From a virus, in the IMG/VR virus record IMGVR_UViG_3300031331_000002, positions 1 to 46,720 of that record: 46,720 nucleotides of DNA, one strand, 5' to 3'. Under the pieces are notes generated by a model. The model was not told the DNA's origin. It was given only the letters and a program-made list of their open reading frames with translations, and ran no database searches. The position numbers were made by a program, and so were the translations under genes. Shown here piece after piece: positions 1,750-38,665 of this stretch. The first letter of the stretch is position 1, and every line of letters starts with the position of its first letter.

Positions 1750-2211
1750 TTACGCGGTTTCAAACAGCGCGAAACTTCCGGCTTTGCATTTCATGTAGTC
1801 ATTTGTAATGACCCATTCAGGCATAGGGACCTCGTTGGTTCGCTCCACACGCGGCGCTTTAACGATGTACCCAAGCGGAGATGAGCAATCGAGGTTAGGG
1901 GCATTTTCATCCGAGAATGCGAAGGACAAGGGCCCGTTGATCTCATTGATTGCGACAACCCAATCAGTAGTTGGCGATCCCTCCATCATGGAGAAAAACA
2001 ATTTCCCACTTTTCGACGGATTGAAAACCTGAATAGAGGTACCAGATGCGACTTTCGTTGGCTCAAATTTGTCCTCATCCGGTTCGGCCGCGATCATGTT
2101 GAGCGCCTGCACCGTGTGAGATTCATTTCCTACGAGGTCGATTAGTGTCAGTGTCGCATTATTGAACGAGTATGGCTTGAAGACTAAGTCTTCTGATAGA
2201 TAGAGTCCCAT
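1750..2211 (-). CDS. Probable tail tube protein
   Basis: 153-residue protein directly after the sheath gene, where the inner tube protein is encoded in contractile tails. The size fits tube proteins (about 140-180 residues) and the sequence is beta-rich. A minus-strand AAGGAGAGTAAAT precedes the ATG at 2211. It is probably related to the DUF3277 tube family, though that is from general resemblance and position only. Confidence 0.6.
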   Translation of the reverse strand: MGLYLSEDLVFKPYSFNNATLTLIDLVGNESHTVQALNMIAAEPDEDKFEPTKVASGTSIQVFNPSKSGKLFFSMMEGSPTTDWVVAINEINGPLSFAFSDENAPNLDCSSPLGYIVKAPRVERTNEVPMPEWVITNDYMKCKAGSFALFETA

Positions 2212-2222
2212 ATTTACTCTCC

Positions 2223-3671
2223 TTATACCGTCGCCGTCATTGCGGCGGCAACGTCATTGATTGCCCATTGTGCGGTTAGATTTGCCAGGTCTGAAAGCGT
2301 CAACGTATGTGTCGCCTTAGTTACGGCGGTGATGTCGGCTGCGCTCGGGAGGTTGAGCACATAATCCGGCTCGATTACTTTGCGTTTTACCAAAATATCG
2401 AGATGGTATTTTATCGGTGCCGCTAAACTCGTAATGTCCTCATCGGAGAATACCGCCGGCTTGTTAGCGCCTGCCATCGCCAAAAGCGTTGCATAGCCCA
2501 TCTCTTGCGACCGAGCTTCTGCCCAGTACAGGGCTATACGGTGCCGTACTTCAACGCCCCCAGGGGTTAGCCCGTGTTTGAGATGAACCACCCCGGCCGG
2601 GTTACCAAGCCAGTCACAGCCTTTCCCCTCAAGCGCTGCCTCTTCGGTAGCTGTCATCTCAATGACGGTCGTCCCGTCCAGATCGAGACCAGAGGCATAA
2701 ACCGAAGATAGTCCGATCCTGGCAATGTTCGCCTGACCCTCGGGCCTGACGTGGCACTCACCACAGATCGCCGCATCTGGATTCTGAGTTGTGTGCTCGG
2801 TGTAGGTGATATGAGCATTGTTATTGGACAGTTCTTTAAGCTGATAGGCAACGTCGGTTGTCTCGACGGCGTCCTTAGAGTTTTCGTCAGTGTCCATGCA
2901 CTCAAACATTTTTTTGTACACCGCGCAGGCCGTAGCCAGATCAACTTTTTGGGCGATAGAACCACTGCGTTGATTGACAATAAACGGCGTGTTGTCAAGC
3001 GCCAATATTGCGGCAAGTGCATCATCAGGATCCTCAGCGTCTAGGCCAGCAACAGAGAACGCACCAGAAGCAATATTGAGATACCCTGCGGCACTGATGT
3101 CGGTACCCGCCCCACCCGTTGCTGCTGTGATTGTGACCGCTTCAGAGTCTGCCCCTGTGGTGCTGTTAGACAGCACAAACCTATTGAGGGCATCTATCTC
3201 TACGGTACAAGTGGCCCAGTCCCCGGCCAATGCCTGAATGGCTGTCTGCATTAGGGCAGCTACATCGGCGAGGCTCGTTACATCCGCCATGGTGGCCGTT
3301 GTGACGAGTACAGTGGGCACCCCACCGATGGTCAAGCCAAAATCACCGGCGACCACTGCCGCATATGTAGCCATTATGGTACCAGGCGATCCACACACAA
3401 ATTGAGCGGGCGTGTCGGCACTGACCCACCGCCCAATATATGCTTGGTCCGGACCTCCCATTGATTGGGCCCAAAGAGTCGTACACCATTCATCGGCATC
3501 TGAATCAGCCGTCAAGTCCGTAGCGTACGACGATTTGTCAGTGATGATGTATCGCCGGTCAACGGGCACATCATCAGTGTCCACGAGAAGCAACGGCACG
3601 CTGAAACCAGCCTGCGCAGCTGTCACGACGGACAACCCAATATTTAACGAATAAATATCACTTAGTTGCAT
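2223..3671 (-). CDS. Contractile tail sheath protein (DUF3383-like)
   Basis: 482-residue protein of sheath size in sheath position, between the neck gene and the tube gene. It looks like the DUF3383 family: an N-terminal domain with DRRYIITDKSS, a Gly/Ala/Thr-rich inserted beta domain (about residues 100-215), then a conserved helical core with FIVNQRSGS and VYKKMFECMD. The C-terminal part (HRIALYWAEARSQEMGYATL) leads into a domain ending in a hydrophobic tail. The sheath contracts around the tube to drive it through the envelope. This gene is the main reason for calling the phage myovirus-type. Confidence 0.8.
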   Translation of the reverse strand: MQLSDIYSLNIGLSVVTAAQAGFSVPLLLVDTDDVPVDRRYIITDKSSYATDLTADSDADEWCTTLWAQSMGGPDQAYIGRWVSADTPAQFVCGSPGTIMATYAAVVAGDFGLTIGGVPTVLVTTATMADVTSLADVAALMQTAIQALAGDWATCTVEIDALNRFVLSNSTTGADSEAVTITAATGGAGTDISAAGYLNIASGAFSVAGLDAEDPDDALAAILALDNTPFIVNQRSGSIAQKVDLATACAVYKKMFECMDTDENSKDAVETTDVAYQLKELSNNNAHITYTEHTTQNPDAAICGECHVRPEGQANIARIGLSSVYASGLDLDGTTVIEMTATEEAALEGKGCDWLGNPAGVVHLKHGLTPGGVEVRHRIALYWAEARSQEMGYATLLAMAGANKPAVFSDEDITSLAAPIKYHLDILVKRKVIEPDYVLNLPSAADITAVTKATHTLTLSDLANLTAQWAINDVAAAMTATV

Positions 3672-15423: not shown

Positions 15424-15624
15424 CCATATTCGTTTTTTTATTTGTAGACGTGCGCGTTTAAAACATGGGTTTTGTCACCCAACGAGACAAGGGATGGGAG
15501 TGCCTCTAATAAACCCAACACCACCGTCTCAATATTACCTGGAAACTATCCTGTAATCCCTAGAACAACACTAGACCGATAGACGTAGTACGTAGGGGGT
15601 ATAGATAGAACATCTAGAGTTACT
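15424..15624. other. Gene-free stretch before the late operon
   Basis: 201 bases separate the metacaspase block from the terminase genes. I found no credible ORF. The minus strand has AT-rich segments and weak hexamers but no convincing sigma70 promoter, so late transcription may need a phage activator or read through from upstream. A weak stem (GGGT/ACCC near 15467-15480) is the only structure noted. Confidence 0.4.
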
Positions 15625-15834
15625 TTATGTGACTAATTTTTTAGCCCACTGCTTGCGTATTTTTTTATTTTTCCATGAGCGACGGTTACGCACATCCCCA
15701 CGTGGTTTATCATCCCATGGGTCAGGCCAATAAGTAGGGCCAGTTTTTGCCCTCACAAATTGTTTGTGTTCGTAATAAATAGACCGTTCGGTCTTTCTCA
15801 TTCTAGGGCATCTGTACCATTTAGTGGTACTCAT
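15625..15834 (-). CDS. Small basic protein
   Basis: 69-residue, strongly basic protein rich in Arg, Lys and Trp (RRSWKNKKIRKQWAKK near the end), suggesting nucleic-acid binding. It overlaps the HExxH gene as ATGA, so it is translationally coupled to it. No family recognised. Confidence 0.6.
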   Translation of the reverse strand: MSTTKWYRCPRMRKTERSIYYEHKQFVRAKTGPTYWPDPWDDKPRGDVRNRRSWKNKKIRKQWAKKLVT

Positions 15835-16112
15835 TTCATTGTCTTAACAAATTGATGCATCAAAGTTCCAAACGATTGGACAAGATTTTCATTATCACTC
15901 AAATCAACACGACCAATGTCGTTCAAAATAGCGTGAACAACTTCGTGGTATAGTGCCTGCTCTTGACAATCCTCAGGTATTTCTTTTCCATCATAAATCT
16001 CTTGAACCTTAATCATCCCGAGGGCAGAATAACAAAGCCCAAGATTTGTTGTATCGTGTTTGGCTTTTACAACCTTGTATTTTTTTGCGCCGAGTTGAAA
16101 GCTTTTAATCAT
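15831..16112 (-). CDS. HExxH metallopeptidase-like small protein
   Basis: 93-residue protein with the zinc-protease motif HEVVH (H56, E57, H60) in the helix QEQALYHEVVHAIL, preceded by QEIYDGKEIPEDC and followed by a short helix. Small phage proteins of this type (ImmA/DUF955-like or minimal gluzincin-like) occur in many siphoviruses and myoviruses without known substrates. A third zinc ligand could be D/E downstream (DLSDNE). It is the second protease-like protein in this transcription unit, after the metacaspase. Confidence 0.7.
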   Translation of the reverse strand: MIKSFQLGAKKYKVVKAKHDTTNLGLCYSALGMIKVQEIYDGKEIPEDCQEQALYHEVVHAILNDIGRVDLSDNENLVQSFGTLMHQFVKTMK

Positions 16113-16132: not shown

Positions 16133-16327
16133 TCATGCTACTCCCCATATCCCTAGATTTATAATCTTACCGACTATTTCAAATTTTTTATTAACCAAAT
16201 GAATCTCGTCTTTTTGCATAGTTGGATTAATTTTTACAGGTATACCGTGAAATAATTCACAGTCAAGTTGACACCATGTAGTTGTTGAATCGCCTCTTCT
16301 TATTACATCCGTATATGAATAAATCAT
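16133..16327 (-). CDS. Small unknown protein coupled to the metacaspase
   Basis: 64 residues, predicted beta-rich, with no membrane segment. Its ATG lies inside the metacaspase stop (ATGA), so the two are translated together. The tight coupling makes it a candidate inhibitor, regulator or partner of the protease, but nothing in the sequence shows this. Confidence 0.55.
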   Translation of the reverse strand: MIYSYTDVIRRGDSTTTWCQLDCELFHGIPVKINPTMQKDEIHLVNKKFEIVGKIINLGIWGVA

Positions 16328-17088
16328 GGCCCCATCTCTAACTGCGGAATCTGCGAAAAACCGGCACCTTTCAAGCTGGCACGGACAGCCCGTAATTGGC
16401 TATCGCGACTACCCTTGGGGTTGCTTGTGATCTGTCGGACGAGGTGATGCGTGAACGCACCTTCAAATCTCATTGTGTCCGCAAACCAGGCATCCGCGCT
16501 GGTTTGATCATCCTGACAACCAGCCCAAACGAAATACGATCCCTGGGCCTCACGCGGCGCCCGTCTAATGCGGCGCTTGGTTGTTCTGTCGACTAAATCG
16601 GGGGCATCAATCCCCTTCGGTCTGATATTCGGCTGCATGCCTTTATCGATGGTCCCGCTATGACAGGCGTCAATCACACACTCCAGAACCGCGCCTGCGT
16701 TGACGCCCTTGAATATCTCACCGAGCTCATCATCAAGAAGCCAGGTACTCGGATCTTTTCGGCTGTAGTCGTACGGGCAAAGCACCTCGTCGCGTCCGTC
16801 CGCCTCATCCCCGCTGGTGTCCGGAACATAGGACCCGTGACCAGAATGGAAATACCAAAGTTGGTCGCCCCGAGCTGAGCCGGACACGAGTGTTTTCAGT
16901 TGATCAACGATGTTCTGTTTCGTTGCCATTTTATCCATTAGAAAAATCATATCGTGGAGGCGCAGCCCGAACCAATCGATGAGCATCCCCCTGAAATTGT
17001 ACACGTCATTCCAACACCCCCGCAATGGGGAGACATTTTTGAACTCGTTGAGGCCCACGAGGAGGGCTCTTTTCGCTCCGGTGCTCAT
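16324..17088 (-). CDS. Metacaspase-like cysteine protease (peptidase C14 family)
   Basis: 254-residue protein with a complete caspase-fold p20 region. The catalytic His is in YFHSGHG (H84) and the catalytic Cys in VIDACHSG (C142), with D140 in the position that gives metacaspases their Arg/Lys preference. The loop DEADGRDEVLCPYDY is typical of metacaspases and orthocaspases. A shorter p10-like part follows, with WAGCQDDQTSADAW and GAFTHHLVRQI. There is no signal peptide or prodomain, so it should act in the cytoplasm. The start at 17088 has GAGGGGG and overlaps the previous gene as ATGA. Seen: both catalytic residues intact. Inferred: it is active. The target (host protein, defence component or virion protein) is unknown. 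Confidence 0.9.
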   Translation of the reverse strand: MSTGAKRALLVGLNEFKNVSPLRGCWNDVYNFRGMLIDWFGLRLHDMIFLMDKMATKQNIVDQLKTLVSGSARGDQLWYFHSGHGSYVPDTSGDEADGRDEVLCPYDYSRKDPSTWLLDDELGEIFKGVNAGAVLECVIDACHSGTIDKGMQPNIRPKGIDAPDLVDRTTKRRIRRAPREAQGSYFVWAGCQDDQTSADAWFADTMRFEGAFTHHLVRQITSNPKGSRDSQLRAVRASLKGAGFSQIPQLEMGP

Positions 17089-17375
17089 TTCCCCCTCATT
17101 TTTTTCCTGAGACGCTTCATTTTGTTTCTCGAAACATTCCTTGGTTCGCGTCTAATAACATGTTTAGGCAATTCCATTTTCGCATGATCCAAACAATATT
17201 TTACCCTGTCTATGCATGAGTCGATATCGTTTGTCGGTCTAGTATCAGGGGGTGTTTTGCCGTCCCAAATGTATTTACGACAATCGACATTGCAGGTACC
17301 TGGTCCGCATTCATTGGGAACAGGACATTGTTTTTTCCCGCTACAATATATGCAGCTTCTTTCACCCCAGCTCAT
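17085..17375 (-). CDS. Small Cys-rich protein
   Basis: 96-residue protein with many cysteines (CIYCSGKKQCPVPNECGPG, then CNVDC and later CIDRVKYC) and a very basic end (KMKRLRKKMRGK). The Cys spacing suggests zinc binding, or disulfides if exported, but there is no signal peptide. It is joined by ATGA overlaps to the lipoprotein before it and the metacaspase after it. Confidence 0.6.
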   Translation of the reverse strand: MSWGERSCIYCSGKKQCPVPNECGPGTCNVDCRKYIWDGKTPPDTRPTNDIDSCIDRVKYCLDHAKMELPKHVIRREPRNVSRNKMKRLRKKMRGK

Positions 17376-17701
17376 GGATTATCAAGACACTCCCAAACTG
17401 CCGGGCAGTCCCTACACTCCGACAGACAAGCGGCATCGACATCTCTGTACGAGTCCGCTACAAACTCCTGGCACCGTTCATAGCACCCGCCCACGGTCTC
17501 TAGGATTTCTCCTATTGGGAGAGCTTTTTTTACCTCAGTATCGCACCGCGTCCAGTCAAAAGCGGCGCAGGCCGCCGTGCACGCCGCCTGAGCCTGCTCC
17601 TGGGTTATCGGTTGGCTGTTAGTGGTCTCTCCACTCTGAAATAGCGAACACCCCGCCCATGTCAGGCAGAACGCGATGAATAAAAATTCGTAGATTCTCA
17701 T
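17372..17701 (-). CDS. Cys-rich lipoprotein
   Basis: 109 residues from the ATG at 17701, preceded by AAAGGAAC. The N-terminus MRIYEFLFIAFCLTWAGC is a lipoprotein signal with lipobox WAGC, so the mature protein would be lipid-anchored in the envelope of a Gram-negative cell. The mature part is helical with about nine further Cys in pairs (CTAACAAFDWTRC, CYERCQEF, CLSECRDCPAVWEC), suggesting disulfides. Phage lipoproteins often block superinfection or act in lysis. It is encoded two genes before the metacaspase. Confidence 0.7.
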   Translation of the reverse strand: MRIYEFLFIAFCLTWAGCSLFQSGETTNSQPITQEQAQAACTAACAAFDWTRCDTEVKKALPIGEILETVGGCYERCQEFVADSYRDVDAACLSECRDCPAVWECLDNP

Positions 17702-17712
17702 TTTGTTCCTTT

Positions 17713-18096
17713 TCAAACGTTGCATTCTCTCAAAACCTCATCGGCATGAGGAGTCCCGACACCGAGGTTCCGACCCAAAAAATGGACGGTGTATGCCTCG
17801 CTGGGCTCTCGGGTGGATCTCAACTGGGCATCCCTAGCGGCCAGCTCTAGGGCCTCAAACCGGGCCTGTATACGACGGAGCGATGACATGAACCTCTCGG
17901 TAGACTCCCATTTCAAAGACGCAGAAAGCCTCACACCACGGTCCTCACCGCAGTCACGGGGCACATCGTCGCTCAGAACATGCTCCAACATGCGGCGGTC
18001 ATCAGAGTCGTCAAAATCTTTTTGGTTCCATTCCATTTTATTCGCGTTTCGTCCAGTTCTAGTCTCATAAATATCTTGGGGGTCCGGCCTTATCAT
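17713..18096 (-). CDS. Unknown charged protein, first gene of the metacaspase operon
   Basis: 127 residues from the ATG at 18096; a longer frame begins at a TTG at 18153 but lacks a ribosome site. The N-terminus is rich in Asp/Arg (FDDSDDRRMLEHVLSDD) and the middle is helical (FMSSLRRIQARFEALELAAR). No family recognised. It is the first gene after the consensus promoter at 18204-18232. Confidence 0.5.
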   Translation of the reverse strand: MIRPDPQDIYETRTGRNANKMEWNQKDFDDSDDRRMLEHVLSDDVPRDCGEDRGVRLSASLKWESTERFMSSLRRIQARFEALELAARDAQLRSTREPSEAYTVHFLGRNLGVGTPHADEVLRECNV

Positions 18097-18120
18097 TACA
18101 GTGCTTTCGTTTTTAAATAC

Positions 18121-18182
18121 CCCCGCCGGCGGGGAGGCACCGGCAGGGGACAAAGGAGAAAAAGGTGCTGCCTAGATTTTAG
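18121..18182 (+). other. GC palindrome with an orphan ribosome-binding site (possible relic leader)
   Basis: The palindrome CCCCGCCGGCGGGG (18121-18134) is followed on the plus strand by a strong AAAGGAG (18152-18158) and a GTG start (18165) that meets a stop after five codons. The arrangement hairpin, GGGGAGG, ACAAAGGAGAAA also occurs before the plus-strand gene at 35733. On the minus strand the palindrome lies in the leader of the metacaspase operon. It may be the remnant of a former plus-strand gene or a shared regulatory leader. Confidence 0.4.
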
Positions 18183-18203: not shown

Positions 18204-18232
18204 ATAATAGGTCTTTGGTGGTCTCATGTCAA
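18204..18232 (-). promoter_or_regulatory. Consensus sigma70 promoter for the metacaspase operon
   Basis: On the minus strand TTGACA (18232-18227), a 17-bp spacer and TATTAT (18209-18204): a perfect -35, ideal spacing and a 5/6 -10. Transcription would start near 18197 and run into 18096 and onward through the metacaspase. The leader contains the 14-bp palindrome at 18121-18134. Confidence 0.8.
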
Positions 18233-31134: not shown

Positions 31135-31929
31135 TCAATTCTCCTCATCTGCTATTAATTTCCACTGCGGAAGATCCCACATCACCGGATTCGGTGCCAT
31201 GCCCGGCCACCAATTGGCCGAGTGACAAGCCGTATATTTTTCCAAAAGATTTTGATATTTCGCCCTGCCATATTCAAAAGTCCTGCTGACTTGACCCATA
31301 TCCAGTATTGCTATATCAACATATTCACTTTTTTTCGTGGCATGAATAAAGATTACTGCCGGCAACACCTCGCCTGTGATGAGCCCTGCTTTAACCGCTC
31401 CGTCATGGTACCACGCAAGTTGCGCATGGTAGTTATATTCAGCCGCAGAGTTTTCTATTTTACGGATAGTGTTGTGACGAGTCGTTTTCAAATCTACGAC
31501 ACGATCTGTAACCGAATCAAGGCGACCTTTACACTTAATTCCATCTGTTGTCCATGTCACAATTTGTTCATATTTACCGCCACTAATATATTGCTGTGCA
31601 TTTTTATTGTCAGAAATAGCATCAGTGCAACGTATGGCCATGTCATAGACATCTTGTTTTATTGCCTCAACGCCGGCAGGCAATTCCGAAAGGTATTCTT
31701 TTTTCGCAGCCACAGATCCTGTCCCTTTGAATGTCGGCATTATCTCATATCTGGAATCAAATTCATCAGGCTCAAGAATCGCGCAATGGATCGCCCGACC
31801 TGCGATATAAGCATCTTTGTCCTCCTGTTCTTCTGGATGATCGTAGAGGTTTTTTGCGTACTTCGGATTCACGTCAATGTGTTTCAACGTGCTCCAATTC
31901 AGCGCTTCTATTTCGTCGTATGAAGTCAT
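31135..31929 (-). CDS. RecE-like / DUF3799 PD-(D/E)XK exonuclease
   Basis: 264 residues from the ATG at 31929 with TTAGGAC upstream; a longer frame from 31971 is less likely. It has AYIAGRAIHCAILEPDEF (H48), then KCKGRLDSVTDRVVDLKTTR with D138, D146 and K148 as the PD-(D/E)XK core, and YNYHAQLAWYHDG with the helix Gln (Q170). These proteins chew one strand of duplex DNA for the annealing protein encoded next. Confidence 0.85.
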   Translation of the reverse strand: MTSYDEIEALNWSTLKHIDVNPKYAKNLYDHPEEQEDKDAYIAGRAIHCAILEPDEFDSRYEIMPTFKGTGSVAAKKEYLSELPAGVEAIKQDVYDMAIRCTDAISDNKNAQQYISGGKYEQIVTWTTDGIKCKGRLDSVTDRVVDLKTTRHNTIRKIENSAAEYNYHAQLAWYHDGAVKAGLITGEVLPAVIFIHATKKSEYVDIAILDMGQVSRTFEYGRAKYQNLLEKYTACHSANWWPGMAPNPVMWDLPQWKLIADEEN

Positions 31930-33146
31930 TGTCCTAACCTTTCTATATTTTTTGAAATAGAAGAAATGCAATCTTCTACATATTTCAATATTTTCAATGC
32001 TTCATTACTATTTACCTCTGGCGCAGAAATAAAACTTAGTTTTTCAACATAGTTCTCAAGCTTTTCTTTATCGCCTGCCTGTTCAAGCCTAATGCGCTCG
32101 GCCTCTTGTCGTTCCTGTTCTTCGCGCTCAGCTAACTCCTCGGCCATGGCCTTCATCTCGGCACGCTCACTTTCCTCTCTCAGTTTGCGTATCTCCTCGT
32201 CCTTACGCGCTCTCTCTGCCTGCTCCAATGCCTCGCGCTTCTCGCGCTCTTTACGTGCCACCTCCTCGGCGGCTTTGCGCTCGGCCTCCACCTTAGCCAT
32301 CTCCTCAGCCATTTGTCGCTCGCGCTTCTCGCGCTCTCTGCGTGCCACCTCCTCGGCGGCTTTGCGCTCGGCCTCCACCTTAGCCATCTCCTCAGCCATT
32401 TGTCGCTCGCGCTCCTCGCGCTCTCTGCGTGCCACCTCCTCGGCGGCTTTGCGCTCGGCCTCCACCTTAGCCATCTCCTCAGCCATTTGTCGCTCGCGCT
32501 CCTCGCGCTCTCTGCGTAGACGCTCATTCTCAGCGGCCATCTTAGCGCGCTCCTCGGCCTCGGCCTTTTCCCTAGCTACCCGTTCTGCCTCAGCGGCCCG
32601 CTCGCGCTCAAGTTGCATCTCGTAAGCCTGACGGTGCATATCAACCATACCGTCAAACTCATCGTCTGGAATGCCTTCCAGGTCCATGAACTTTGTGTCA
32701 ACACCAAACGGTGCGAGTATTCCCTCTCGTTCTTTTCTGAGCTGAGCCTTGCGCTCCTCTTCATCTTTGCGTATCTGTTCAAGGCGCGCCTCTTCTTTGC
32801 GCTTGGCGAAAGTTTCTTTTTTGAGGAGATCCTCCTCTACTGGTTTGGTCGTGTCTGCAACGAGGCGATAGGTCTCATCGATAAACTTTCCCTCTTTGAT
32901 GATTGGCTCTTTGAGAGCTTTTTTTGTCTTCTCTGCGTTGACCCGAATGGACTTCAACTCCAAGCGGGTTTTACGCGCCAGTTTCATCTCATCCACTTGG
33001 GATATGTCGGTAATCTCAAGCCCTTCTACCTTTTCCGCGCAGGCGTTTACCGCCTCGAAGAGAGGCTCAAACTCAACCCAAATTTCTTTCGCTCTATGGA
33101 TTTCAATCCCAGTCTTTTTAACAACATTCTCTATTGCATTTTTCAT
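31926..33146 (-). CDS. Long coiled-coil protein with three 29-residue repeats
   Basis: 406 residues. The N-terminal part (about 1-165) is a folded region of the kind found upstream of phage recombination genes. Residues about 170-360 are almost entirely Arg/Glu/Ala coiled coil, including three near-identical 29-residue units (213-299). A short C-terminal domain follows. The 29-residue period is one more than a multiple of seven, so the coil must contain a phase shift. It precedes the exonuclease and ends inside its start region; it may organise the recombination complex. Function unknown. Confidence 0.7.
   Translation of the reverse strand: MKNAIENVVKKTGIEIHRAKEIWVEFEPLFEAVNACAEKVEGLEITDISQVDEMKLARKTRLELKSIRVNAEKTKKALKEPIIKEGKFIDETYRLVADTTKPVEEDLLKKETFAKRKEEARLEQIRKDEEERKAQLRKEREGILAPFGVDTKFMDLEGIPDDEFDGMVDMHRQAYEMQLERERAAEAERVAREKAEAEERAKMAAENERLRREREERERQMAEEMAKVEAERKAAEEVARREREERERQMAEEMAKVEAERKAAEEVARREREKRERQMAEEMAKVEAERKAAEEVARKEREKREALEQAERARKDEEIRKLREESERAEMKAMAEELAEREEQERQEAERIRLEQAGDKEKLENYVEKLSFISAPEVNSNEALKILKYVEDCISSISKNIERLGQ
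32250..32510. repeat. Three tandem 87-bp repeats within the coiled-coil gene
   Basis: Each unit encodes 29 residues (for example MAEEMAKVEAERKAAEEVAR). The DNA is nearly identical between units, with the same block recurring at 32286, 32373 and 32460, so expansion or gene conversion was recent. Copy number may vary between isolates or be collapsed by assembly. Confidence 0.85.
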
Positions 33147-33796: not shown

Positions 33797-34321
33797 TTAT
33801 TCTCTCTCTTTGTCCAGGAGCGCCCTTACCCTCTTCAACTCCCCTTCAGTGTGGACAACCCCACCTGAATTCAATTCCAAATACCATACCAACACCTCTT
33901 CTCTTGTCTTCAGGTCATTGATATGGAAATTGAATGCCGGTCTCATCCAATTCATTTTATCTGCAAAATCGCCGAGATAATTCCTTCCAAAAACAGCAAG
34001 CCTGTTACCCATAAATTCCCTCACTGCTGTGAGGCGTTGCAAACCGTCAACCAAGACAAATGGTCCGCCAAAATCACGCATCCAGCCAGCGCAATTAAAG
34101 CACACATCCATCCCTGACATGCCACCCCTTAACCCGTATTCGACATATGCAACCTGCTGCCCCTTTGTCCAGACATGACCGCGTTGAAAATCCGGATTTA
34201 GCTTCAGAGATGCCCCACAACCATATTTGTAATGATCGATTTGACTCTCGATATTGGACCACCCGGCATTGACATGATATTCCCCTCTCCCGGTGAATTT
34301 CTTTATTTCTGAAAATTTCAT
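33797..34321 (-). CDS. DUF262/ParB-like protein, first early gene
   Basis: 174 residues from the ATG at 34321; the frame could begin at 34381 but that start has no ribosome site. It carries the DUF262 marks LNPDFQRGHVW (QRG, about 46-48) and VDGLQRLTAVREF (DGLQR, about 92-96). DUF262 is the ParB-like nucleotidase domain found in GmrSD-type restriction and related defence proteins. Here it stands alone as the first gene below the control region, suggesting an immediate-early role, perhaps anti-defence or host takeover. The target is unknown. Confidence 0.7.
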   Translation of the reverse strand: MKFSEIKKFTGRGEYHVNAGWSNIESQIDHYKYGCGASLKLNPDFQRGHVWTKGQQVAYVEYGLRGGMSGMDVCFNCAGWMRDFGGPFVLVDGLQRLTAVREFMGNRLAVFGRNYLGDFADKMNWMRPAFNFHINDLKTREEVLVWYLELNSGGVVHTEGELKRVRALLDKERE

Positions 34322-34351
34322 CTTAGTTTTTAACTTCCTTTTAAAAATATC

Positions 34352-34370
34352 CTCCGACCGCCCCGGAGGA
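34352..34370 (-). terminator. Hairpin with U-tract in the early leader (attenuator candidate)
   Basis: CCTCCG (34352-34357) pairs with CGGAGG (34365-34370); on the minus strand it is followed by ATATTTTTAAAAGG. Placed just upstream of the first early gene, it could attenuate or control early transcription. Confidence 0.45.
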
Positions 34371-34451
34371 GTGGGCAACATTTACCAGCATGCTCAGAGA
34401 CCACATGATGGACCACCCTTCCAGGCGGCACGGGGGATACACCCTCTAGCC

Positions 34452-36251: not shown

Positions 36252-36797
36252 ATGAAAATGAAAACTCTAATCCTGATATCCCTCATACTGGCAGGGTGCG
36301 TGCCCGTCCTGCCGAGAGTATGCGACGGGAATGTCTGCGGTGTCAGCGGGCCGGTCTCGTATGATGGGGAGACCACCATGTTGATCACCGCCGCCCATGT
36401 GGTCAATAAATCCGATGGTCTCGTGGTCGTAAAAATGCCCCCCTACCACTACCTCGGCCGCCATAGCGTGAGCGGCCACGTTGTGGCCCTGGACCGCTGG
36501 GATGACGTGGCCATGGTGATAGTCCCCGGCCGGGTTGGGCGTCCATACCAGCCGTGTAAATCCCCTCCAGAGGTGGGGGATGAAGTCATGATCTACACCG
36601 GCCGTTCTGTAGGTTTTACCCGTTCCAGGCATGAGCGCCGGCGCGGGATAGTGACGGCCGTCGACGGGACCAAGGTCATGACCAACATCCACCTCTACCC
36701 AGGGGATAGCGGCTCACCCCTCTACCGTGGTCGGTGCCTGGTCGGCATCGGACTACGGTTTGACGGTTCAAATTCGGTTTTCAGGAGGATTAGATGA
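36252..36797 (+). CDS. Trypsin-like serine protease lipoprotein
   Basis: 181 residues with the signal MKMKTLILISLILAGC and lipobox LAGC (Cys16), so it should be anchored to the envelope. The trypsin-fold triad is complete: ITAAHVV (H49), LDRWDDVAMV (D85) and YPGDSGSPLY (S153, with the oxyanion glycine). At 165 mature residues it is a compact form. Phage-encoded trypsin-like lipoproteins are unusual. It may degrade surface or periplasmic host proteins, or act in exclusion or lysis. GAGGAG precedes the start and its stop overlaps the DnaJ-like start. Confidence 0.85.
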   Translation: MKMKTLILISLILAGCVPVLPRVCDGNVCGVSGPVSYDGETTMLITAAHVVNKSDGLVVVKMPPYHYLGRHSVSGHVVALDRWDDVAMVIVPGRVGRPYQPCKSPPEVGDEVMIYTGRSVGFTRSRHERRRGIVTAVDGTKVMTNIHLYPGDSGSPLYRGRCLVGIGLRFDGSNSVFRRIR

Positions 36798-37674: not shown

Positions 37675-37880
37675 CTAAAAAATATCCGACCCCGACGGTT
37701 CCGGGATGGTACTGGATGAGGACCCATAAGAAAACCATTGTGATGGTAGATTACCCAGAGGGGGAAAGCTCTCATGAATTATACATGTGGGGCATCGAGG
37801 TGGGTGGCGGTAAGGTCTCAAGCCTCAGAGGCATATGGGGACCGCGAATCAAGGAATGGAAACCGGAGGAGAATGAATGA
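37671..37880 (+). CDS. Small PGWY-type protein
   Basis: 69 residues from the ATG at 37671, overlapping the previous stop as ATGA. TPTVPGWYWMRT resembles the P-G-W-Y start of small phage proteins of the DUF551 kind. Function unknown. Confidence 0.55.
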   Translation: MTKKYPTPTVPGWYWMRTHKKTIVMVDYPEGESSHELYMWGIEVGGGKVSSLRGIWGPRIKEWKPEENE

Positions 37881-38344
37881 CCAATCTATCAGCATTCATT
37901 TTGTCATTGATCGTGCTGGCACCAAACCACGAGCTTGTACGCCATCCTGAGCTACGCGCTGAGGTTGCCGGATACTTCATGTTGGCCGGGGAAAAATACA
38001 ATCTAGAGCCGTCTCTGTTAGCCTATTGGGCATGGCGTGAAAGTTGGTTTCAGGTAGACGCAGTAGGAACACGAGGAGAGATAGGGTATGCTCAGGCCCA
38101 TGGCAAGGCTCTGAAAACATGCATAGCCGCTGGTCTGGACATCAAGACTCGTGAGGGTGGCGCGCATTGTATCGGCCTGTTACTCGACATGGGGATGAGA
38201 ATGTGCGGTGGTCTCGAACGCGGTGCCCGCTGGTACGCCTCGGGAAGTTGCCGTGGGTCGGTTAGGACAAAAAAGAAAATAAAAGATCGCCTGCATAGCT
38301 GGCGTAGAAAGTGGAATATATTGGTAAGAAGGAGAAATGATTGA
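37877..38344 (+). CDS. Lytic transglycosylase (endolysin candidate)
   Basis: 155 residues. A hydrophobic start (MTNLSAFILSLIVLAP) could be a signal or signal-arrest sequence. The SLT-type core has SLLAYWAWRESWFQVDAVGT with the catalytic Glu (in RES) and then GEIGYAQAHG, followed by a Cys-containing helical part. The C-terminus is strongly basic. It would cleave peptidoglycan during lysis. It is the last gene of the operon and meets the late genes tail to tail. Confidence 0.8.
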   Translation: MTNLSAFILSLIVLAPNHELVRHPELRAEVAGYFMLAGEKYNLEPSLLAYWAWRESWFQVDAVGTRGEIGYAQAHGKALKTCIAAGLDIKTREGGAHCIGLLLDMGMRMCGGLERGARWYASGSCRGSVRTKKKIKDRLHSWRRKWNILVRRRND

Positions 38345-38347
38345 GAT

Positions 38348-38665
38348 CTACCAACTGACAGTAATACCCGCAGCGCTAAGAGCGGCAAGTACTATAGGTA
38401 TGAGTATACGAAGCCATGTAGGCGAGTTTGCTATGGCCGCAGGCATGCGTGAGACTCTATTTACTTTTTCATTTTCTCTGTCATCTTCCCTAGTAACCGC
38501 AGCCACGCCTTTTGCCAGTGCTTTTTGATACAAAAGGCAAGCCTGTACGTGCCCGTCCAACCCGTTTTTGACGGCAAGCTCCACATCTGATTTCGTTGGT
38601 AATTTTGAAACCCTTGCAGATAACCTATCGATAGAACCCATAATTAATTGTGTACTGTCGTCCAT
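38348..38665 (-). CDS. Small C-terminally anchored membrane protein (XhlA-like)
   Basis: 105 residues. A helical N-terminal two thirds (DSTQLIMGSIDRLSARVSKL) is followed by one membrane helix near the end (LRILIPIVLAALSAAGITV). This XhlA-like shape is common in holin-associated proteins. It is the last gene of the late operon and faces the endolysin. Confidence 0.6.
   Translation of the reverse strand: MDDSTQLIMGSIDRLSARVSKLPTKSDVELAVKNGLDGHVQACLLYQKALAKGVAAVTREDDRENEKVNRVSRMPAAIANSPTWLRILIPIVLAALSAAGITVSW

Follow-up and report, generated by a model that had tools for sequence, protein, structure and literature searches.

The metacaspase gene and its phage

The metacaspase is encoded on the minus strand of a 46,720-nt viral sequence (the window; IMG/VR record IMGVR_UViG_3300031331_000002, positions 1–46,720), within a run of seven minus-strand genes extending from 18153 down to 15625 (Table 1). 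The plus strand of the same interval is interrupted by stops. ATGA overlaps chain the lipoprotein, Cys-rich, metacaspase and 64-aa genes, those at 17085–17088 and 16324–16327 flanking the metacaspase gene, and the HExxH gene is joined to the last gene of the run likewise. The sigma70-like promoter is the genome's single 11-of-12 match; since a shuffled genome would hold 0.6 on average, the match itself is unremarkable and its weight comes from its position upstream of the run. The hairpin downstream is weak evidence for a terminator, since the region contains 13 such hairpins against 6.6 expected.

Table 1. Genes and signals of the seven-gene run (window coordinates).
Feature	Coordinates	Strand	Remarks
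Sigma70-like promoter	18204–18232	−	TTGACA-17-TATTAT; within the 85-bp gap that precedes the run
First gene of the run	17713–18153	−	Up to 146 aa; true start possibly at an inner ATG near 18096
Cys-rich predicted lipoprotein	17372–17725	−	117 aa; lipobox-like LTWAGC
Cys-rich protein	17085–17375	−	96 aa; ATGA-coupled to the lipoprotein and metacaspase genes
Metacaspase	16324–17088	−	254 aa; p20, linker and p10-like part
64-aa protein	16133–16327	−	ATGA-coupled; downstream of the metacaspase gene
HExxH protein	15831–16112	−	93 aa; HEVVH; phrog_1233; two genes downstream of the metacaspase gene
Basic protein	15625–15834	−	69 aa; last gene of the run
Terminator-like hairpin, weak	15466–15481	−	5 pairs; in the gap that follows the run

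The family search returned no match for the first-gene, 96-aa and 64-aa proteins, the last of which could conceivably be an inhibitor or a cofactor. The 69-aa protein matches a portion of one encoded on another metacaspase contig, L039 (E = 2.9e-10). From its motif, the 93-aa protein is likely a small metallopeptidase. Further away, a predicted lipoprotein encoded at 36252–36797 (+) contains a Trypsin_2 serine-protease domain (E = 3.9e-10). Judged by sequence, the phage likely encodes at least two proteases of different clans, the metacaspase and the Trypsin_2 protein, or three if the HExxH protein is counted.

The window is a complete 46.6-kb genome of a contractile-tailed phage. It carries identical 127-bp direct repeats, one at each end, and the tape-measure ORF continues through the join of the two ends; bacterial contamination was rejected on these grounds. 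Because the genome is complete and its end repeats are identical, the metacaspase is phage-borne. Tail sheath, baseplate wedge and tape measure were all matched, as were genes of DnaB/primase, Erf-like and ExoVIII-like type and, weakly, an SPP1-like portal. Neither 50,697 phage records nor 2.9 million viral contigs, the latter scanned by pattern, yielded a close phage relative, and none was found with the terminase, portal, capsid-candidate and primase/helicase proteins as queries; the sheath gave one weak match (27%, Escherichia phage BUCT618). An 87-bp tandem direct repeat occupies 32232–32518 within a 406-aa coiled-coil ORF (31926–33146). The protein encoded at 33797–34381 (−) matches the defence models NsnA (1.1e-9) and PD-T4-2_A (2.4e-6), probably through a DUF262-like domain.

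The first-pass annotation had described an intact metacaspase gene in a tailed phage, tightly coupled to both neighbours and without a toxin-antitoxin-like partner. All of this is borne out: the tail and portal matches and the genome ends establish the phage, the ATGA overlaps are present, and no recognised toxin-antitoxin or defence match was found among the neighbours (PADLOC, none at E ≤ 0.1). The reading frame is real, with the strand to be added, as it is open on the minus strand only. That annotation contained neither the operon with its promoter-like site, nor the lipoprotein shared with the relative L035, nor the recurrence of such genes beside lysis and membrane genes, all of which are described here.

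Fold, active site and predicted activity

Pfam Peptidase_C14 matches residues 6–251 of the protein (E = 1e-23; 84.7 bits against a cut-off of 21.4). The p20 part (residues ~4–148) contains every catalytic-site residue cited for it, namely H84 in HSGHG, C142 in DACHSG and D140, together with the DGRDE loop (97–101). The p10-like part (183–254) lies C-terminal to p20 and carries the motifs QTSADA and QIPQLE. An AlphaFold2 model, calculated from an alignment of 13 viral homologues, has a pLDDT of 81.3 and a pTM of 0.81, with the p20-p10 linker (152–180) being of low confidence. In Foldseek comparisons with the PDB every one of the best matches is a metacaspase (E = 3e-18 downward, TMq 0.68–0.77), giving a predicted caspase p20 fold, as the first-pass annotation had anticipated. 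Among predicted viral structures the good matches are giant-virus caspases, and the sole named tailed-phage match is weak (E = 5e-4, TM 0.4). Residues 165–251 align with the p10 of 7qp0 and 4f6o, both calcium-dependent type I enzymes, along its length, and the long linker of type II style is absent. At the level of sequence and fold it is close to certain that the phage protein is a type I-like metacaspase with a p10. The label orthocaspase was rejected, since the p10 part is present.

Type I metacaspases (MEROPS C14B; yeast Mca1/Yca1, 4f6o; Candida glabrata, 7qp0/7qp1; Trypanosoma brucei MCA2, 4afr) have the same p20-p10 layout and share with the phage protein the His-Cys dyad, the acidic pocket residues and the QTSADA and QxPQL motifs. 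The phage protein matches metacaspase-1 (7qp0) at E = 1e-31 by sequence and the best metacaspases at 3e-18 to 1e-17 by fold. Unlike these enzymes, it has only 254 residues, a short linker and no N-terminal prodomain, and is encoded in a lipoprotein operon. Single-domain metacaspases of Thermodesulfobacteriota and Pseudomonadota (L020, L023, L075) also have this layout, with up to 42% identity (L075). Unlike the phage copy, they are chromosomal and uncoupled from the lipoprotein, and none of 26 single-domain ones bears a membrane anchor. Metacaspases have been reported in giant viruses (PMC7136201). Those of medusavirus, Clandestinovirus and Fadolivirus are virus-encoded and of metacaspase fold like that of the phage, but they belong to viruses of eukaryotes, have 259–410 residues, and their hosts have metacaspases of their own.

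H84, C142, D140, S82, D28 and C25 are invariant in 14 of 14 viral homologues in the first alignment. In the second, with 23 viral homologues, it is the same case for all of them except S82, which is conserved at ≥90%; the loss of active residues, which would have spoken against a working protease, is not seen, the dyad being kept in both. D28, S82 and D140, which we take to be the equivalents of the TbMCA2 S1 pocket, are the acidic S1 pocket residues and are present and conserved in the phage metacaspases. D100, D119, D120 and D148 are candidate acidic Ca2+ ligands; all four are present in the phage protein, and D120 and D148 vary among phage copies in the 14-homologue alignment. In known metacaspases the p10 bears a low-affinity Ca2+ site, and enzymes with a p10 are generally Ca2+-dependent, with cleavage after Arg or Lys (PMC5756287). 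Since both properties generally go with a p10, a Ca2+ requirement and Arg/Lys specificity are predicted, by analogy, for the phage metacaspase. The cyanobacterial orthocaspase MaOC1, for which a basic P1 preference is reported (PMC6426788), has the p20 fold in common with the phage protein, which adds the p10; orthocaspases are without p10 and Ca2+-independent (PMC5756287).

Relatives in phages and bacteria

Searching phages with profiles, as the first-pass annotation had suggested, revealed metacaspase relatives with a conserved His-Cys dyad on about 40 of 2.9 million IMG/VR viral contigs, belonging to several lineages and ranging up to 485 kb. The first profile consisted of the window protein and the LR745208 phage protein; wider alignments brought the count to about 40 distinct loci, after which it saturated. 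Among 50,697 phage records only one has a metacaspase, an unannotated 485-kb metagenomic phage, and no metacaspase annotation occurs among the phage records listed. We found no report of a tailed-phage metacaspase in the literature searched, which covers subscription journals and bioRxiv thinly and so leaves absence unproven. One viral copy (L016:4801–6795, +) is likely split by an intein directly after the catalytic SGHG.

The family is sparse in bacteria, occurring at E ≤ 1e-40 in 5/399 Pseudomonadota-centred genomes and in 15/297 genomes of the phylum of L020. A maximum-likelihood tree of 74 rows requires 11 changes of the phage label (8–11 in bootstraps), of which the starred branches alone force no more than one. 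The tree holds several phage-only groups, and the window phage groups weakly (81/80) with L035, L003 and L004, near Thermodesulfobacteriota sequences. In two bacterial loci (L019:9947–12868 and L022:9839–13390) the metacaspase gene stands directly upstream of tail-sheath-like and tube-like genes, an arrangement that resembles extracellular contractile injection systems; the literature searched contained no paper that connects metacaspases with such systems.

The nearest viral relative is L035 (41%), whose contig also carries terminase-like and portal-like genes (read by eye). Its gene order is Cys-rich lipoprotein, metacaspase and Amidase_3 endolysin, with an ATGA overlap at the endolysin. The lipoprotein just upstream of the L035 metacaspase has a homologue in the window, encoded two genes upstream of the metacaspase there: their alignment has a local score of 65, a value reached by none of 2000 shuffles (mean 29, sd 5), and pairs eight Cys. 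This homology emerged only by direct comparison, as single-sequence synteny comparison with the metacaspase loci gave no shared module, and a search with the lipoprotein alignment found no further loci. L035 also encodes a predicted lipoprotein with an HExxH motif (HELIH) at 1894–2385 (+).

The GC content of the metacaspase gene (54.5% against 48.5% genome-wide), together with the lack of a close phage relative in the searches above, is what would be expected of a bacterial gene acquired recently by chance and without function in the phage. Such a passenger is improbable, given the open frame with all active-site residues in an ATGA-coupled run, the lipoprotein partner common to L035 and the persistence of phage-only clades.

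Possible roles of the metacaspase in infection

Could the enzyme be the prohead or tail-protein protease of the phage? The first-pass annotation had remarked on the lack of a conventional prohead protease, and an S78 search of the genome was indeed negative. The terminase-like gene is only ~1.2 kb away, with the metacaspase gene upstream. However, the metacaspase gene lies outside the portal-to-capsid block, and the head module combines the SPP1-type portal with a separate scaffold-like gene, a head type that needs no protease. Copies in other phages occur in unrelated modules, and L035 has an XkdF-like protease candidate of its own in the head module (by eye). Virion maturation is thus the least probable of the explanations considered, and identity with a prohead protease was rejected on position, head type and the L035 candidate. 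Of the three roles left by the first-pass annotation, virion processing is therefore disfavoured, while triggering host death or disarming host defence stand. A host-directed accessory role, with the metacaspase outside the virion, fits best.

Several phage copies are found beside lysis genes. Besides the L035 endolysin, an Amidase_2 gene is near the metacaspase in L014 and an M15_4 gene in L015, and reading by eye adds an M15-like neighbour in L038 and a holin-like one in L013. Three of the nine contigs with a detected peptidoglycan hydrolase have it within ~700 bp of the metacaspase (0.40 expected, P ~0.005, post hoc); in the other six the distance is 10–120 kb. Small TM- or signal-bearing proteins make up 22/117 of the neighbours within two genes, against 20/285 (P = 0.001, post hoc). 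An N- or C-terminal TM or amphipathic helix is present in 11/40 phage copies and in 0/26 single-domain bacterial relatives (P = 0.002, post hoc), L055, L057 and L059 (514 aa, with signal peptides) being excluded as probably bacterial. All three enrichments come from the same data that prompted them and from crude gene calls, with related phages not being independent. There is no single obligatory partner, because no neighbour family exceeds 2/115 neighbours. Endolysin adjacency and membrane anchors point to the envelope or to lysis.

We propose, with a probability of about 35%, that the phage metacaspase is an Arg/Lys protease directed at the host and probably gated by Ca2+, which acts around membrane breach at the lysis stage. 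It would be synthesised inert during infection from its own operon, along with the lipoprotein. Holin action or late membrane damage would let Ca2+ flow in and switch it on, and the active enzyme would cut host cytoplasmic or envelope proteins, so that lysis and release are completed or speeded. We infer its specificity and gating, and likewise the timing, site of action and substrate. Against this reading, the window copy is >20 kb from the lysis-like genes (37877–38665, including an SLT-like gene at 37877–38344), has none of the gene adjacency seen in L035, L014 and L015, and is without a membrane anchor. With a strong sigma70-like promoter, early expression is at least as plausible as late expression.

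Early expression would suit a protease directed at a defence or regulatory protein of the host, or one that clears host proteins by cutting after Arg/Lys. Its own promoter, the best of its kind in the genome, the small accessory operon of genes without an assigned role, and the sparse, patchy occurrence with several gains are all in keeping with such counter-defence or takeover, and the raised GC content of the gene is consistent with acquisition. In two large phages with related copies (L006:8805–12021 and L044:8893–12018), the metacaspase gene lies between gp32-like ssDNA-binding and RecA/UvsX-like genes, and this placement in the replication module suggests a non-lysis role there. On the other hand, no known anti-defence family is found among the neighbours, the protease has no known target, and this reading leaves unexplained why many copies are associated with lysis and membranes. 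We regard counter-defence as possible, and rank it close behind lysis-stage, Ca2+-gated proteolysis.

The PADLOC 'caspase' model matches the phage protein (1.2e-18), which has the clan CD caspase fold of such defence effectors, including Craspase TPR-CHAT. Phage lipoproteins are known exclusion factors, and the promoter-run-terminator layout is moron-like. These features would agree with a metacaspase and lipoprotein that kill or block the cell when another phage arrives. Unlike those effectors, the protein has no sensor domain and no CRISPR or gasdermin partner beside it. Its neighbours are without a defence match, and the genome, with no integrase found and no repressor seen, gives no sign of a lysogen to protect. 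Superinfection exclusion is therefore unlikely.

Metacaspases, which are related to the proteases behind animal and plant cell death, are under study in bacteria, plants and fungi for a possible part in killing the cell; phages may use this class against their hosts. If lysis-stage proteolysis or counter-defence is true, either the lysis stage is linked to regulated proteolysis or a new class of anti-defence protease exists. It is a more doubtful generalisation that tailed phages took up metacaspases repeatedly for execution at the lysis stage, as membrane-linked proteases gated by Ca2+; this would be a viral version of programmed-death proteolysis, started by the breach of the membrane. The recurrent tailed-phage family offers a small, tractable enzyme for studying the role of metacaspases in the dying bacterial cell. 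An N-terminal amphipathic helix of WIKSLF/FFKSLF type recurs on the metacaspases of L005, L040, L041, L061, L062 and L063.
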